From contig NZ_AUMM01000008.1 in assembly GCF_000430685.1 (NCBI RefSeq), positions 1-64,000 on the forward strand: a DNA stretch of 64,000 bases, read 5' to 3'. Below, one piece after another: positions 13,142 to 49,716 of the stretch. The stretch comes from Tuberibacillus calidus DSM 17572 (GTDB lineage Bacteria; Bacillota; Bacilli; Bacillales; Sporolactobacillaceae). Below the pieces are notes generated by a model that ran no database searches, was not told the DNA's origin, and was given only the letters and a program-made list of their open reading frames with translations. The first letter of the stretch is position 1. Each line of letters begins with the position of its first letter. Both the position numbers and the translations under genes were made by a program.

Positions 13142-13222
13142 TGGTAAGAAACGGTCCTATTTCGGGTTGATATAAGGGCAACTAGGTTCAAAGGCTAGGC
13201 GGAGCTAAGTTTTCTTTATGGG
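13142..13222. repeat. dispersed ~100-bp post-terminator repeat, copy 2
   Basis: It begins GGTAAGAAACGG only four bases after the T-run of the terminator, continues ATAAGGGCAACTAGGTTC and ends AAGGCTAGGCGGAGCTAAGTT. Block order is the same as at 5387 and 15591, with about 20 bases missing in the middle compared with copy 1. Confidence 0.45.
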
Positions 13223-13358
13223 TCATGTAGACACCTCCACTAATATTTTGCGCGCTGTCATGTATAGAGTGTAGACAGAGCTCTTTTTTTAAAAGACAAA
13301 AATCGATAAAATATTTTTGGTAATAGATTATTATTTAACAGACAAAAGGAGAAGAACG

Positions 13359-14045
13359 ATGGATCAAACTGCTGAAAAAAAGCTAGTCGGTGAAGCTGCG
13401 GCGGCTTATGTAGAGGATGGAATGATAGTCGGTCTCGGGACAGGCTCAACGGTCTACTTTACAATACTCAAATTAGCTGAGCGGGTTCAAAAAGAAAAAT
13501 TAACGATACAAGCGGTGTCAACGTCGAAAAGAACGACAGAACTCGCTGAAGCAAACGGCATCAAAATTTATGATTTGAATGACGTGCCAAAGGTGGATTT
13601 AACGATTGACGGTTGCGATGAATTCGACCCCCAGCTTTCGGGGATTAAAGGCGGCGGCGGCGCGCTTTTATTTGAAAAAATTGTCGCAACCGCATCTGAT
13701 AAAAATATATGGGTGGCAGACAGCTCCAAAGCTGTCGAGCAGCTTGGGCGCTTTCCGCTTCCAGTGGAGGTTTTACCGTTTGGTGCCCAACATCTTTTCC
13801 GTCTTTTTGAGAAAGAAGGCCTCAAACCGGTTTTCCGTACGAATCCTGACGGCTCACCGTATATGACGGACAGCGGAAATTGGATCATTGACCTTCATCT
13901 CGGGCGTATTGATGATCCTGAGACGCTTTCGTCATGGTTGAACGGACAACCTGGTGTCATCGAAAATGGTTTGTTTTTAAATATTGCCGATTGCGTGATT
14001 CTCGCAAACGGCGAGAATGTCAAGACGTTAAAGCGGGATGTTTAA
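13359..14045 (+). CDS. rpiA: ribose-5-phosphate isomerase A
   Basis: The 228-residue enzyme interconverts ribose 5-phosphate and ribulose 5-phosphate in the non-oxidative pentose phosphate pathway. Family motifs are GLGTGSTVYF near residue 30, DGCDEFDP with the active-site acids near 85-90, and KGGGGALLFEKIVA. The start ATG 13359 has AAAGGAGAAG before it; upstream in-frame codons lack a site. It appears to be transcribed alone; about 200 bases of unremarkable sequence separate its stop from a strong terminator. Confidence 0.97.
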   Translation: MDQTAEKKLVGEAAAAYVEDGMIVGLGTGSTVYFTILKLAERVQKEKLTIQAVSTSKRTTELAEANGIKIYDLNDVPKVDLTIDGCDEFDPQLSGIKGGGGALLFEKIVATASDKNIWVADSSKAVEQLGRFPLPVEVLPFGAQHLFRLFEKEGLKPVFRTNPDGSPYMTDSGNWIIDLHLGRIDDPETLSSWLNGQPGVIENGLFLNIADCVILANGENVKTLKRDV

Positions 14046-14243: not shown

Positions 14244-14276
14244 AGGACAGTCCGAACGTGGGCTGTCCTCTTTTTT
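14244..14276 (+). terminator. intrinsic terminator downstream of rpiA
   Basis: AGGACAGTCC at 14244-14253 pairs with GGGCTGTCCT at 14260-14269, and TTTTTT ends at 14276. The 200 bases between rpiA and this hairpin contain no supported gene. Confidence 0.88.
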
Positions 14277-14299
14277 ATCCTCGTAAGGAAGTAAAAATG

Positions 14300-14945
14300 G
14301 CCTAAGAAATTTTTGGCTTGGGTTGCTATATTAAGTTTTATCAGCCATTATGAACTGTAAATTTAGTTGAAATGGCATTTAGTTTGAAATTATTGGTAAA
14401 ACGAGGCTGATTTGAGGAGTGTTTTGCCAATATCTGTATTCAAAAAGCCGTTTTGGAATAGAAAGCGAACCAAAATGGCCTTTAGCGTGGCTCTATCTGC
14501 CATTTTGGACTGAGAATTTTTTTGAAATGGCATTTAGCTTGAAGTTAATGGAAAAATGAGCCCAATTCGAGGAAGGTTTTACCAATATCTGTATTCAAAA
14601 AGCCATTTTGGAATAGAAAGCAAACCAAAATGGTATTTAGCGCAGCTCTATCTACCATTTTGAGCTTAAAAATTTTTTGAAATGACCTTTAGCTTGAATT
14701 TACTGGAAAAATAAGCGTGATTTGAGGATGGTTTTACCAATATCTGTATTCAAAAAGCCGTTTTGGAATAGAAAGCAAACCAAAATGGTATTTAGCGTGG
14801 CTCTATCAGCCATTTTGAGCTTGAAAATTTTTTGAAATGACCTTTAGCTTGAATTTATTGTAAAAATAGAGCTAAATTAGAGCCGTTTTCCAATATCTGT
14901 ATCAAAAAGGCCGTTTTGGAGTGATGATGACGCCATTATGGTCTT
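14300..14945 (+). repeat. 155-bp tandem repeat array 1
   Basis: The landmark GAAATGNC(N)TTTAG recurs at 14369, 14524, 14679 and 14834, so three successive steps are exactly 155 bp. A partial unit precedes 14369 and the last unit degenerates from about 14900. Within a unit come CCAATATCTGTATTCAAAA, then GCCGTTTTGG or GCCATTTTGG, a 13-nt spacer, CCAAAATGG, and a second copy of GCCATTTTG. Units differ at roughly one base in five, yet length is conserved. No frame stays open across units. Related arrays lie at 32985 and 49205 on the same strand. Confidence 0.92.
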
Positions 14946-14975
14946 ATGAATTGGCCCAACAAGCACTAATCCGGA

Positions 14976-14999
14976 AGACCGGGCGGGTGCCCGGTTTCG
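14976..14999. terminator. hairpin closing array 1, possible bidirectional terminator
   Basis: ACCGGGC at 14978-14984 pairs with GCCCGGT at 14989-14995 around a 4-nt loop; TTTCGT follows on the plus strand. On the minus strand it could end transcription of the DUF1657 gene, although the T-run there is weak (CTTCC). Confidence 0.5.
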
Positions 15000-15590: not shown

Positions 15591-15696
15591 CGGGTATGAA
15601 AGGATTTATTTTTTTGATCAGCGTAAGAAAACGAAGGTTCTGACCGCACTCAAAACGGCTTAGCTGAGCCAAGTTTTTATTAGCGGAGCCAAGTGC
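15591..15696. repeat. dispersed ~100-bp post-terminator repeat, copy 3
   Basis: It starts GGGTATGAAAGGATTTATTT four bases after the terminator, contains GTAAGAAAACGAAGGTTC and ends with AGCTGAGCCAAGTT and TTAGCGGAGCCAAG. It is about as long as copy 1 at 5387, with the terminal AGCC-AAGTT / TTAGCGRAGCC block best conserved. Confidence 0.5.
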
Positions 15697-15935
15697 GGCT
15701 TGTCTTCGGAGATATAAAAACCTTTTTGTGGTTTTTTACAATTGAAAATGGGACTTCATTTCCGGTGATTGAAATCAAGCTCATAAAGAGAGAAATTTTA
15801 CAAATCATGTATAGCGGGGCACAGAAACCAACAAATACGTGTTTACCATCGACTTGTAGCCCTAAATCGATGGGGCGAAACAAGTCATGCCATACAATGA
15901 AAAAGCTAGCGAAAGGTTTAGCAGTAAATAAAAAT
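15697..15935. other. stretch without a supported gene
   Basis: Both strands have a medium-length frame here (plus 15693-16157, minus 15680-15883). Neither has a ribosome binding site or recognisable motif, and the plus-strand one runs through a hairpin and into the aldehyde dehydrogenase gene in antisense. A decayed gene is possible but not demonstrable by eye. Confidence 0.4.
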
Positions 15936-21365: not shown

Positions 21366-21502
21366 ATCATCCTTCTCCCATCCAGACTGTACTGTCGGTT
21401 CCGGATTCGCACCGGATCCTGCCGTATAAACGGCTCGCGGACTTAAAGAAAAATCTTATCACCGCCGGTCGGGAATTTCACCCTGCCCTGAAGGAACGTC
21501 TT
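21366..21502 (-). ncRNA. FMN riboswitch (RFN element)
   Basis: Read on the minus strand the element shows the conserved blocks TTCAGGGCAGGGTGAAATTC, CCCGACCGGCGGTGA, GTCCGCGAGC, GATCCGGTGCGAATCCGG and CAGTCTGGATGGGAGAAGGA in the right order. These are the invariant parts of the six-arm FMN aptamer. It controls ribU by premature termination. Confidence 0.97.
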
Positions 21503-31499: not shown

Positions 31500-32690
31500 A
31501 TGAATTGGAAGCGAAGTGCGAGGATTTTATGGGTTTGTAACTTCATGATTTCCGCTGGAATGACAATGGTCATACCGTTTTTGGCGCTTTTTTTGTTGCA
31601 AATGGGCATTAAAGAACACCATGCGTTGAGCATGTGGACCGGGGCCATTTTTTCTGCGACCTTCCTTTCGGCGGCCGTGATGGCACCGATTTGGGGGGTT
31701 TTTGCCGATAAATACGGCCAGCGGGCTAACCTTATCCGCGCGGGGATTGGCATGGGGCTCATAACATTTTCCATGGCCTTTGCCCATACGCCGTTCATGC
31801 TCTTAATTCTGAGATTTGTCGTCGGCTTTTTTTCCGGGTTTATCACGGTCTCATTTTCATATTTATCGCGGATCACACCTAAACAAAACATTGGGGAGGC
31901 CCTCGGGACACTGCAAACCGGAAACATCGCCGGCGGTATTATCGGCCCTTTAATTGGCGGATTTTTATCCGACCTATTCGGTTTTCGCATGGTGTTTTCC
32001 ATAACGGGGATTTGTATCTTATTGACTCTCATTCCGGTCATATTTCTCTTAGAGAAGGATCCCGTCGTCAAACAAACGAAAGAAAATCATGGATCATATA
32101 AACAAGTCTTGACGAACCCCGTTCTGATCTCATTATTTGCGGCAACATTTCTCGTCCAGGTCTCGATTCAAGGGACGAATTCCATGATGACGATTTTTGT
32201 AAAAACCCTGGTGGGCAATGTGGGCAATTTAGCCTTCCTATCTGGCCTTGCCTCATCCTTAACGGGGATTGCAACCATCATTGGTGCGCCTTATATCGGG
32301 AAGTTGGGAGATAAACTTGGGCAAGCAAAAATATTACCAGTTGTGATGTTATTGAGCGGATTGTTGGCCTTACCGCAAATATGGACGAAGAACATTTATG
32401 AGCTGTATTTGTGGCGGTTCTTGCAAGGGTTGTTTATCGGCGGTATGTGGCCGGCCATCCAGTCGTTGATTCATAAACGAAGCCCGAAAATGGTTCAGGG
32501 ACGAGCCTTCGGTGTGACCGCTAGCAGCCGTTTTCTTGGAAATTTATCGGGACCGATAGTCGGGGGATATATTTCGGGAGCTTTGGCTACGAATTATGTT
32601 TTTCTTTTTTCAGGAGTGGTATTGATTATAGGAAGTTTCTTTGTCCGGTGGCGAGTGAAGCCTGAAGAGCGATCCACCTCAACAACTTAG
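31500..32690 (+). CDS. MFS multidrug efflux transporter
   Basis: The 396-residue protein has twelve predicted membrane spans. The motif-A loop between spans 2 and 3 is GVFADKYGQRANLI, and TGNIAGGIIGPLIGG in span 5 is the antiporter motif C that marks drug/proton exporters of the DHA1 group. A second motif-A-like loop, GKLGDKLGQAKI, follows in the second half. GAAGGCGACGGG precedes ATG 31500. It resembles NorA/YttB-like exporters; the substrate is unknown. Array 2 follows after a terminator. Confidence 0.88.
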   Translation: MNWKRSARILWVCNFMISAGMTMVIPFLALFLLQMGIKEHHALSMWTGAIFSATFLSAAVMAPIWGVFADKYGQRANLIRAGIGMGLITFSMAFAHTPFMLLILRFVVGFFSGFITVSFSYLSRITPKQNIGEALGTLQTGNIAGGIIGPLIGGFLSDLFGFRMVFSITGICILLTLIPVIFLLEKDPVVKQTKENHGSYKQVLTNPVLISLFAATFLVQVSIQGTNSMMTIFVKTLVGNVGNLAFLSGLASSLTGIATIIGAPYIGKLGDKLGQAKILPVVMLLSGLLALPQIWTKNIYELYLWRFLQGLFIGGMWPAIQSLIHKRSPKMVQGRAFGVTASSRFLGNLSGPIVGGYISGALATNYVFLFSGVVLIIGSFFVRWRVKPEERSTSTT

Positions 32691-32957: not shown

Positions 32958-32984
32958 GTCGTTTAGGATGGCAATTAGTGCGGT

Positions 32985-33660
32985 TCCAAAAGTTATTTTA
33001 GGCTTAGAATTTTTTTGAAATGGCTTTTAGCTTGAATTTATTGGAAAAATGATCCTGATCTGATGGATGCTTTGCCAATATCTGTATTCAAAAAGCCATT
33101 TGGGAGCAGGAAGCCAACCAAAATGGTCTATAGCGCGGCTCTAAAAGCCGTTTTGGGCTGAGAAATTTTTTGAAATGGTCTTTAGCTTGAATTTACTGGA
33201 AAAACGAGCCTGATTTGAGGTCTGTTTTGCCAATATCTGTATTCAAAAAGCCATTTGGGAGCAGGAAGCCAACCAAAATGGTCTATAGCGCGGCTCTAAA
33301 AGCCGTTTTGGGCTGAGAAATTTTTTGAAATGGTCTTTAGCTTGAATTTACTGTAAAAACGAGCCTGATTTGAGAACTGTTTTGCCAATATCTGTATCCA
33401 AAAAACCATTTTGGAGTAGGATGCGAACCAAAATGGCATATAGCATGGCTCTAAAAGCCGTTTTGGGCTGAAAAATTTTTTAGAATGGCATTTAGCTTGA
33501 ATTTACTGGAAAAACGATACCGAATTGAAGACTGTTTTTCCAATATTTGTATCCAAAAAGCCATTTTGGAGTAGGAAGCGAACCAAAATAGCCTTTAGCC
33601 CGGTTCCAAAAGCCCTTTTGGATTAGGAAACGATCCAAAATGGCCTTTCAATTAGCACGC
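32985..33660 (+). repeat. 155-bp tandem repeat array 2
   Basis: The landmark (T)GAAATGGN(C/T)TTTAGCTTG recurs at 33017, 33172 and 33327, and in a variant form (AGAATGG) at 33482. All three steps are 155 bp. The units around 33070-33195 and 33225-33350 are almost identical, including the shortened GCCATTTGGG block, so they arose by recent duplication or conversion; the others are more diverged. Unit design and strand match arrays 1 and 3. No gene is encoded. Confidence 0.93.
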
Positions 33661-33674
33661 TCAACAGTATATCA

Positions 33675-33703
33675 CTAAAAAAAAGACCGGGCATATGCCC
33701 GGC
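33675..33703 (-). terminator. intrinsic terminator of the RND exporter gene
   Basis: The perfect palindrome CCGGGCATATGCCCGG at 33687-33702 is followed on the minus strand by TCTTTTTTTT. It marks the right edge of array 2. Confidence 0.9.
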
Positions 33704-48829: not shown

Positions 48830-49126
48830 GTGGATATAGAAACACGACAAGCTAGACAAAGAGAATTTACCATCATTTTGGTTTTGTTTATTTTACTAGT
48901 GATTGTCGGTGCGGTCGGCTATCAGTTACCGCAGAACGTTTATTATTATGGCGGTTTGTCCCCAGGGCCTTATGGTTTCGGCGGTTGGGGCGGGTATTAT
49001 GGCCCTCTTCCGCCACCTTATTGGGCAACACCTACCCCAACGAGCATGGCACCATTACCCTATGGTCCATATGGTGCACCAATCCCGCCGGCTTACGGTC
49101 CGCCTCAATTGCCCGCATGGTGGTAA
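48830..49126 (+). CDS. YjcZ-like membrane segment fused to a Pro/Gly/Tyr-rich tail, probable spore protein
   Basis: The 98-residue protein has a polar head (MDIETRQARQREF), a single span TIILVLFILLVIVGAVGYQL that closely resembles the YjcZ membrane segment (FALIVVLFILLIIVG), and a 60-residue tail dominated by Pro, Gly and Tyr (GGLSPGPYGFGGWGGYYG, then PYGPYGAPIPPAYGPP). Relative to YjcZ peptides the Gly/Tyr part is moved to the C-terminal side. AAGGGGGTAG precedes GTG 48830. The sigma-K-like promoter and the style of the tail suggest a coat or outer-layer protein; no named family. Confidence 0.75.
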   Translation: MDIETRQARQREFTIILVLFILLVIVGAVGYQLPQNVYYYGGLSPGPYGFGGWGGYYGPLPPPYWATPTPTSMAPLPYGPYGAPIPPAYGPPQLPAWW

Positions 49127-49173: not shown

Positions 49174-49204
49174 GAAGGGGATTCAAAGGGCTATTTGCAC
49201 GGTT

Positions 49205-49560
49205 CAAAAGAATAGATTGGGCTGAAAAACTTTTTGAAGTGGTATCTAGCTTGAATTTATTGGTAAAATATTGCGGACTCGCAATGTTTTACCAATATCT
49301 GTATCCCAAAAACCACTTTGAAGCAGGAAGCTGTCCAAAATGGCCTTTAGCGAGGCTCTATCTGCCATTTTGGGCTGAGAAATTTTTTGAAATGGCATTT
49401 AGCTTGAACTTATTGGAAAAAAAAGCCTGGCCCAAAGGTTGATTTCCCAACATCTGTATCCTCTAAACCATTTTGAGATAGAATTAGGATCAAAATGGCT
49501 TTTAGTATTATTCCATCGACCATCTCGAAAAGGAAGGCGAGCCAGATAGGCCTATAAATT
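49205..49560 (+). repeat. 155-bp type tandem repeat array 3 (two units)
   Basis: The landmark GAARTGGNATNTAGCTTGAA occurs at 49236 and 49389, a step of 153 bp. CCAATATCTGTATCC, CCAAAATGGCCTTTAGCG and CTCTATCTGCCATTTTGG are all present as in arrays 1 and 2. The right end degenerates from about 49450 (CATCTGTATCCTCTAAACC). This array stands between two genes on the same strand, before the nucleobase permease; 49561-49716 holds a partial ACCGGAC hairpin and the permease leader only. Confidence 0.88.
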
Positions 49561-49716
49561 AGAACGGCCCGCAATAGGTCTCTAATCATAAAAAAACCGG
49601 ACTTATGCTTTGGTAATCTTAAATGCACCAAGTGCTTTAAGCAAAGTTTCCGCATGAATGCATCACATTTGGTAAACTAAGGGCTGGATGATCGATATTA
49701 AGGAGTATTGCGACTT

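Follow-up and report, generated by a model that had tools for sequence, protein, structure and literature searches.

Introduction

Proteobacteria provide the best-known cases of interspersed palindromic arrays, and it is there that transposase-driven spread and the binding of gyrase have been discussed. The REP and BIME elements are described as intergenic inverted repeats with a regularly spaced, alternating orientation and a location mostly downstream of genes (PMC2817692, PMC3733652), and the BIME-2 elements of E. coli as being enriched in gyrase sites (PMC6379681). The pneumococcal BOX elements are given there as 67–637 bp long, composed of boxA, boxB and boxC modules and provided with terminal inverted repeats and target duplications (PMC3049150). 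Among the Bacillus stem-loop families, Bcr1 is listed with a size of 147–167 bp and 12–31 copies and Bhal-1 with a size of 74 bp; the word 'tandem' is absent from that paper (PMC2267715).

The window considered here is a stretch of 64,000 nt of contig NZ_AUMM01000008.1 (positions 1 to 64,000, forward strand) of Tuberibacillus calidus DSM 17572. An earlier note on this DNA had pointed to alternating inverted blocks near 14.4 kb and proposed that they form a chain of exchangeable stems, with a hint of selection on the RNA or DNA fold. Going beyond that note, we report that the arrays containing these blocks are dispersed over the genome, that two of their hairpins form a 52-bp repeat nested within a 155-bp repeat, and that relatives exist in other families. 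The data speak for a repeat array that acts at the level of DNA rather than for an RNA that switches.

Results

The 155-bp unit and its arrays in the T. calidus genome

The 240 bp of blocks seen before lie inside a tandem array with a period of 155 bp (14339–14920). Tandem Repeats Finder (TRF) reports this period there (3.8 copies) and at 32996–33621 (4.0 copies). The window has 17 copies of the motif GCCRTTTTGG where 0.68 would be expected, a count reached in 0 of 100 shuffles, and these copies are mostly found in three arrays at about 14.4, 33.3 and 49.3 kb. The alternation of inverted blocks was borne out by the sequence at 14447–14531: in unit 1 the H1 hairpin consists of GCCGTTTTGG, 13 nt and CCAAAATGGC, and 19 nt after it the H2 hairpin begins with GCCATTTTGG at 14499 and finishes with GAAATGGC at 14531. 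The features of the window that matter here are the following.

13317–14045, plus strand: ribose-5-phosphate isomerase A gene (rpiA), upstream of array 1 and on the unit's strand (Pfam PF06026, E 5.7e-60)
14244–14277, plus strand: hairpin resembling an intrinsic terminator, located between rpiA and array 1
14339–14961, plus strand: array 1 (L001), about four copies of the 155-bp unit and a partial right end (TRF; profile matches to the right end)
14447–14479, plus strand: H1 of unit 1, 33 nt, arms of 9–10 bp and a loop of 13–15 nt (from the sequence)
14470–14508, plus strand: H12, the alternative pairing of the right H1 arm with the left H2 arm across the 19-nt linker
14499–14531, plus strand: H2 of unit 1, 33 nt, starting 52 bp beyond the H1 start (from the sequence)
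14551–14583, plus strand: H3 of unit 1, 33-nt inverted repeat whose arms differ in sequence; it lies 52 bp past H2, and the next H1 follows at 51 bp
14977–14994, plus strand: terminator-like hairpin on the right side of array 1, a near-copy of GACCGGGYNNATGCCCGG (alignment of right ends)
31500–32690, plus strand: MFS transporter gene upstream of array 2 (Pfam PF07690)
32970–33665, plus strand: array 2 (L002), about four units with partial ends (TRF 32996–33621; profile matches)
48830–49126, plus strand: gene of a YjcZ-like small protein upstream of array 3 (Pfam PF09680, E 2.3e-5)
49174–49562, plus strand: array 3 (L014), one full unit with partial ends, the outermost part weakly supported (BLAST match 49234–49505; profile matches)

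The whole genome (3.24 Mb, 81 contigs; the relatives searched include no other member of its genus group) contains 19 separate arrays according to BLAST, profile and covariance searches. They yielded 41 full units, 32 of them exactly 155 bp long within a range of 153–157 bp, and thus 82 H1/H2 hairpins, with those of partial units in addition. The unit profile was confined to one strand, since a two-strand iteration mixes the strands of such a near-palindromic unit. Most arrays start within the unit near an H2 hairpin and stop just past an H1 hairpin. A left module is common to a subset of the arrays and a right module, ending in a terminator-like hairpin, to a further subset; this hairpin, GACCGGGYNNATGCCCGG, is present in near-identical form at 12 places of the genome at no more than one mismatch, for example at 14977–14994 and 33685–33702 of the window.

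The dimensions of the hairpins are nearly constant: H1 is 33 nt long in 37 of the 41 units and H2 in 40, and the H1 and H2 starts are 52 bp apart in 37. The consensus 52-mers of H1 and H2 are identical at 30 of 52 positions, and 0 of 5000 shuffles did as well. H3 fills the remaining 51 bp of the unit and is also 33 nt long. It was nevertheless rejected as a recognisable third copy of the monomer, the length being right but the sequence not: we detected no similarity of H3 to H1, to H2 or to the Mesobacillus monomer described below (12–18 of 52 positions agree, a level reached by at least 872 of 5000 shuffles). The 155-bp unit is best described as a higher-order repeat in which two related monomers are combined with a further hairpin of the same length. 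A coding array was rejected because the period is not a multiple of three; the ORFs overlapping the arrays are short and not shared.

Conservation is higher in the arms than in the loops of H1 (0.887 versus 0.669) and H2 (0.898 versus 0.841), and the loop of H3 is also below the arms. Units are more alike within arrays (0.814) than between arrays (0.717), and alignment revealed half-unit blocks common to neighbouring units. Both of the latter observations speak for a neutral or selfish satellite, that is, for inverted repeats whose expansion between genes is driven by slippage and unequal crossing-over and serves no host function, the conservation of the arms coming from the amplification mechanism itself (arm-to-arm and unit-to-unit conversion).

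Another repeat dispersed in intergenic regions has GTAAGAAA at its ends and a hairpin built around GGCTCTGCCTTCGCCTAAAAGGCTTGGCAGAGCC; it occurs at more than 20 places in this genome, often beside the 155-bp arrays (window 13146–13210 and about 15620–15700; L013:107–203, L018:34–109, L012:2351–2456, L009:2689–2800).

A 52-bp monomer with relatives in other Bacillales families

The monomer is 52 bp long and comprises two inverted arms around a 15-nt loop, followed by a 19-nt linker; the arms are of the type GACATTTYG elsewhere and GCCATTTTG in this genome. A covariance model of the 155-bp unit found matches in 7 other genomes among 199 of the order (8 including its own), at loci made of tandem hairpins at 52-bp steps. 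A pattern scan of named genomes returned 58 stretches, mostly from Mesobacillus species and strains, and from Cytobacillus oceanisediminis 2691, Ureibacillus manganicus, Neobacillus citreus and one Clostridia MAG. With a looser pattern, 33 of 397 genomes of the order matched, and many copies were present only in this genome, in G088 and in the Mesobacillus genus group; the reversed control of this pattern gave single matches in six genomes of the listing. The model of the 52-bp monomer, built on 57 monomers from several families and gapless except for one column, had matches at E ≤ 0.01 in 30 of the 397 genomes. Tandem runs at 51–52-bp steps were seen in eight Bacillales families (f1, f2, f9, f11, f14, f21, f41 and f47; genomes G088, G104, G234, G195, G083, G078, G322 and G264 as well as Mesobacillus), and several single weak matches (e.g., L205, L206, L208–L210) had no array at the locus. 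When 398 genomes were drawn from the whole class, 7 matched at E ≤ 0.001, five from the same order with 2–14 matches and two others with one each.

In the reverse direction, a model of the named monomers, mainly from Mesobacillus, produced 109 hits at E ≤ 10 in the T. calidus genome versus 6 in its reversed sequence, and 91 of the 109 (best E 0.0007) fell on the H1 and H2 phases. The scores that suggest homology of the units in this genome to the other monomers are modest. BLAST of 58 genomes, its own included, gave matches in its own genome only, and an exact-pattern search with a stretch of the 155-bp unit found nothing in the other named genomes. The distribution is patchy, since no genome of the same family matches besides its own (25 searched by BLAST), and none is listed with a match to the monomer model. 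Such patchiness, with 30 of 397 genomes matching, is again a point for the neutral satellite. Of 252 steps shorter than 70 bp between ungapped monomers at the 58 named loci, 240 measure exactly 52 bp, which supports the DNA reading. Against the satellite, the spacing is kept across the eight families, and among the relatives the loops vary and diverge whereas the arms are conserved and the total length hardly changes.

Two records deserve a separate mention. An array of about five 52-bp units is located at L180:3492–3738 on a 15.8-kb contig of a viral collection. Records titled Chryseobacterium sp. ISL-80 (L105, L118, L141, L143, L158) carry Bacillales arrays; the title looks wrong, as the records match G213, a genome placed in the Mesobacillus genus group.

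Arrays are mostly found downstream of genes in one orientation

With ORFs called by a simple greedy script without a gene finder, the left gene was on the unit's strand in 16 of the 19 arrays of this genome (p 0.0044). When the upstream gene was supported by Pfam (E ≤ 0.001), the strand agreed in 12 of 13 cases, one of the 12, gerPA, being below the curated cut-off. In the named set the upstream gene was on the unit's strand in 36 of 42 arrays, or in 11 of 14 clusters of arrays grouped by upstream gene (p 0.057). Pooling gives 27 of 33 (p 0.0003), the sense strands of the two sets having been matched by linker similarity and gene position, so that these choices are not fully independent. The upstream genes have no common function. 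Slippage alone would hardly give the arrays a preferred orientation towards genes, which counts against the purely neutral satellite.

The same bias also speaks for an RNA element, with stems placed in the 3' UTR or in read-through RNA and acting in termination, in 3'-end stability or as exchangeable stems, the last being the idea of the earlier note. In one cluster of 7 the arrays begin 5–20 bp past the stop codon, which also suits this explanation, and arrays that close behind a stop codon may be transcribed as 3' UTR. Against it stands the terminator-like hairpin found between gene and array in 7 of the 19 cases here and in 5 of 11 sense clusters elsewhere.

Stem pairing without covariation inside the genome

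In the alignment of all 41 units (A1) the pairs of four stems were counted and the covariation score of each was compared with 500 shuffles. The suggestion that the middle block can pair with either neighbour holds in sequence terms: 82.1% of the cells are paired in H1 (shuffle mean 81.6), 85.5% in H12 and 90.2% in H2. The particular G-U case named before was found too, at A1 pair 32-60 (A-U in 29 of 41 units, G-U in 10, unpaired in 2). The further claim that substitutions keep the pairing by selection on the fold did not survive in this genome, where no stem covaries above shuffles over the 41 units. The observed covariation score was reached by 174 of 500 shuffles for H1, 442 for H2, 446 for H12 and 374 for the outer pairing of the near-palindrome (79.8% paired), and the paired fraction of H12 is below nearly all shuffles (496 of 500 at least as high). 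Sliding by 1–3 columns lowers the percentage paired in all four stems, which is true of any inverted repeat. The earlier note would have given up selection on the fold if neither compensatory changes nor stem conservation were found; the former are indeed absent within the genome, but the arms are conserved above the loops.

In most stems, H2 being the exception, G-U and A-C mismatches have similar frequencies. Cells with G-U and A-C number 27 and 31 in H1, 29 and 35 in H12, and 53 and 17 in H2; with one unit from each of 18 arrays they number 12 and 14, 14 and 15, and 21 and 7, respectively. The G-U lean of H2, a point for the RNA element, comes largely from one pair, 90-108, which is U-G in 28 of 41 units. 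In 298 unique named monomers, ten pairs gave 232 G-U versus 252 A-C (core pairs 22 versus 17), so G-U is not preferred over A-C in H1, in H12 or in the named monomers.

Folding, proposed before as a check, was no more favourable. A single unit folded as RNA has a z of −0.35 (67 of 200 shuffles as good), and two units have −1.34 on the plus and −1.16 on the minus strand (12 and 8 of 100 shuffles as good), so the folds of single and double units are not clearly more stable than those of shuffles. RNAalifold found H2 alone. At the gathering score, Rfam matched none of the arrays; elsewhere it matched a T-box in L156 and an FMN riboswitch in the window (21366–21499, minus strand, 118.4 bits). An LhrC-like sRNA on the minus strand was rejected, the best weak Rfam match having 25.6 bits versus a cut-off of 110 (E about 0.2).

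Aligning units for covariation, as the earlier note had advised, had a different outcome across clades: there the score of the 57 monomers was reached by 0 of 500 shuffles. Three pairs have changed on both sides between clades, namely 11-42 (A-U in 43, C-G in 13), 4-49 (C-G in 25, U-A in 24) and 6-47 (A-U in 23, C-G in 10). Since these are clade-level differences, the independent events are few. Such paired changes, which favour the RNA element as far as they go, appear to show a conserved dyad symmetry, and an inverted repeat in DNA would fit them as well as an RNA stem. Pair 16-34 behaves in the opposite way in the named set (L102–L159), being Watson-Crick in 76 of 314 hairpins against 147.6 expected (0 of 2000 shuffles as low); in its usual state one arm has C and the other T, i.e., anti-covariation, and this depletion counts against the RNA element. 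No support for exchangeable stems in a transcript was found in the covariation and folding analyses, and a selected chain of them was rejected, there being no covariation within the genome and no strand-specific wobble except for the G-U lean of H2. We consider the RNA element in general an unlikely explanation.

Presence and absence of arrays at the deoD site

All 21 genomes of the Mesobacillus genus group have a deoD match, and the 19 with a full-length gene were compared (G407 and G412, with damaged or distant matches, were left out). Behind deoD, 14 of the 19 carry an array of 1–9 units, two of these being a single weak unit, one of them partly masked, and five carry none. The arrays start 42–108 bp past the stop codon, and the sense score exceeds the antisense score in 13 of 14, the remaining one being a tie (109 versus 110 bits). 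In the 12 arrays with at least two usable units, identity within versus between arrays is 0.68 versus 0.43 for loops, 0.83 versus 0.78 for arms and 0.77 versus 0.67 for linkers. Because five of the 19 sites lack an array, its function there, if any, must be dispensable. The variation of the copy number from 0 to 9 at one site adds to the case for the neutral satellite, which we regard as a serious rival, possible although on balance doubtful.

Arrays and empty sites at the same place could also be left by a mobile element like REP/RAYT or MITE, itself non-autonomous and dependent on a transposase acting in trans, as could the dispersed copies and the end modules, left and right, common to a subset of the arrays in T. 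calidus. Against such an element, Y1_Tnp is absent from two array-rich genomes, G108 and G238, and a clean insertion boundary was not seen by eye at the empty deoD sites. In T. calidus, the only Y1 transposase gene found belongs to an IS605-like locus without the repeat (L059; a tnpA ORF of 132 aa and a shortened tnpB-like ORF). The other 13 of the 16 array genomes searched do have Y1_Tnp matches, with a general Y1_Tnp model that is not specific for RAYT. A REP driven by RAYT was rejected on the zero Y1_Tnp counts of G108 and G238 and the lone IS605-type gene here, and a mobile element of any of these kinds seems to us very improbable.

Discussion

What is observed in these arrays is exact spacing, conservation of the arms with variable loops, a 3' position in one orientation, and presence or absence as well as a change of copy number at an orthologous site. 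The reading that we prefer, and hold tentatively, is that the arrays form an interspersed Bacillales family built of tandem inverted repeats; they would be a phased DNA repeat of the BIME type that lacks a resident RAYT and has a candidate function. Inverted sites in double-stranded DNA fit better than an RNA stem because the length and the arms are fixed, the loops are free, the clade changes are symmetric and wobble pairs are not generally preferred on either strand. The excess of G-U in H2 (53 versus 17) is a point against the DNA reading, and the cross-clade covariation would also fit an RNA stem.

In mechanistic terms, the arrays may act as double-stranded DNA that presents phased inverted sites to a putative DNA-binding or topology-handling factor behind transcription units, perhaps much as the BIMEs do in enterobacteria. 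A step of 52 bp amounts to roughly five B-DNA turns, which would put equal arms on one face of the helix. In T. calidus two monomers and a third, different 33-nt hairpin compose the 155-bp higher-order unit. The arrays probably turn over by unequal recombination, which would be in line with the birth and loss of arrays at deoD. The 52-bp spacing could also be inherited rather than selected. In a bolder version of the DNA reading, the inverted-repeat arrays would make up a system that spans the Bacillales and has not been described so far, phased along the helix with five DNA turns to each monomer and read as DNA, behind transcription units, by a putative dedicated nucleoid or topology protein; orthologous arrays would hold on to arms and spacing as their loops turn over, and the three-hairpin higher-order repeat would have evolved here. 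This we think rather unlikely. With its exact spacing, conserved arms and free loops, its presence or absence at the same gene in close relatives and no obvious resident transposase, the 52-bp family offers a natural experiment, and a tractable one, for asking why bacteria retain palindromic arrays downstream of their genes.

We found no description of the 52-bp array family in the literature, which is weak evidence of absence, subscription journals and preprints being mostly outside the coverage. The closest systems share some of its traits. As intergenic stem-loop repeats in Bacillales the arrays resemble Bcr1 and the other Bacillus stem-loop families, and it is by description that they are set apart from Bcr1 and Bhal-1, namely by the listed sizes and copy numbers and by the absence of the word 'tandem' from that paper. 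With BOX they have in common a modular build, interspersed copies and a varying number of internal units, and some of the arrays here share left and right modules; sequence and unit size differ. The likeness to the REP and BIME of enterobacteria and pseudomonads extends to palindromes that are extragenic, regularly spaced and alternating in orientation within arrays, and to a location mostly downstream of coding regions (16 of 19 here, 11 of 14 elsewhere); the strict 52-bp spacing of the monomers and the Bacillales hosts are unlike them. REP and BIME typically number more than 100 copies in a genome; T. calidus has 82 H1/H2 hairpins in its full units, and further ones in partial units. No GTAG or CGTC tag was seen by eye beside the 33-nt hairpin in the consensus sequences and, with neither this tag nor, in T. 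calidus, G108 and G238, the RAYT association found, BIME-2 would be the nearest functional analogue of the arrays by analogy and not by membership.
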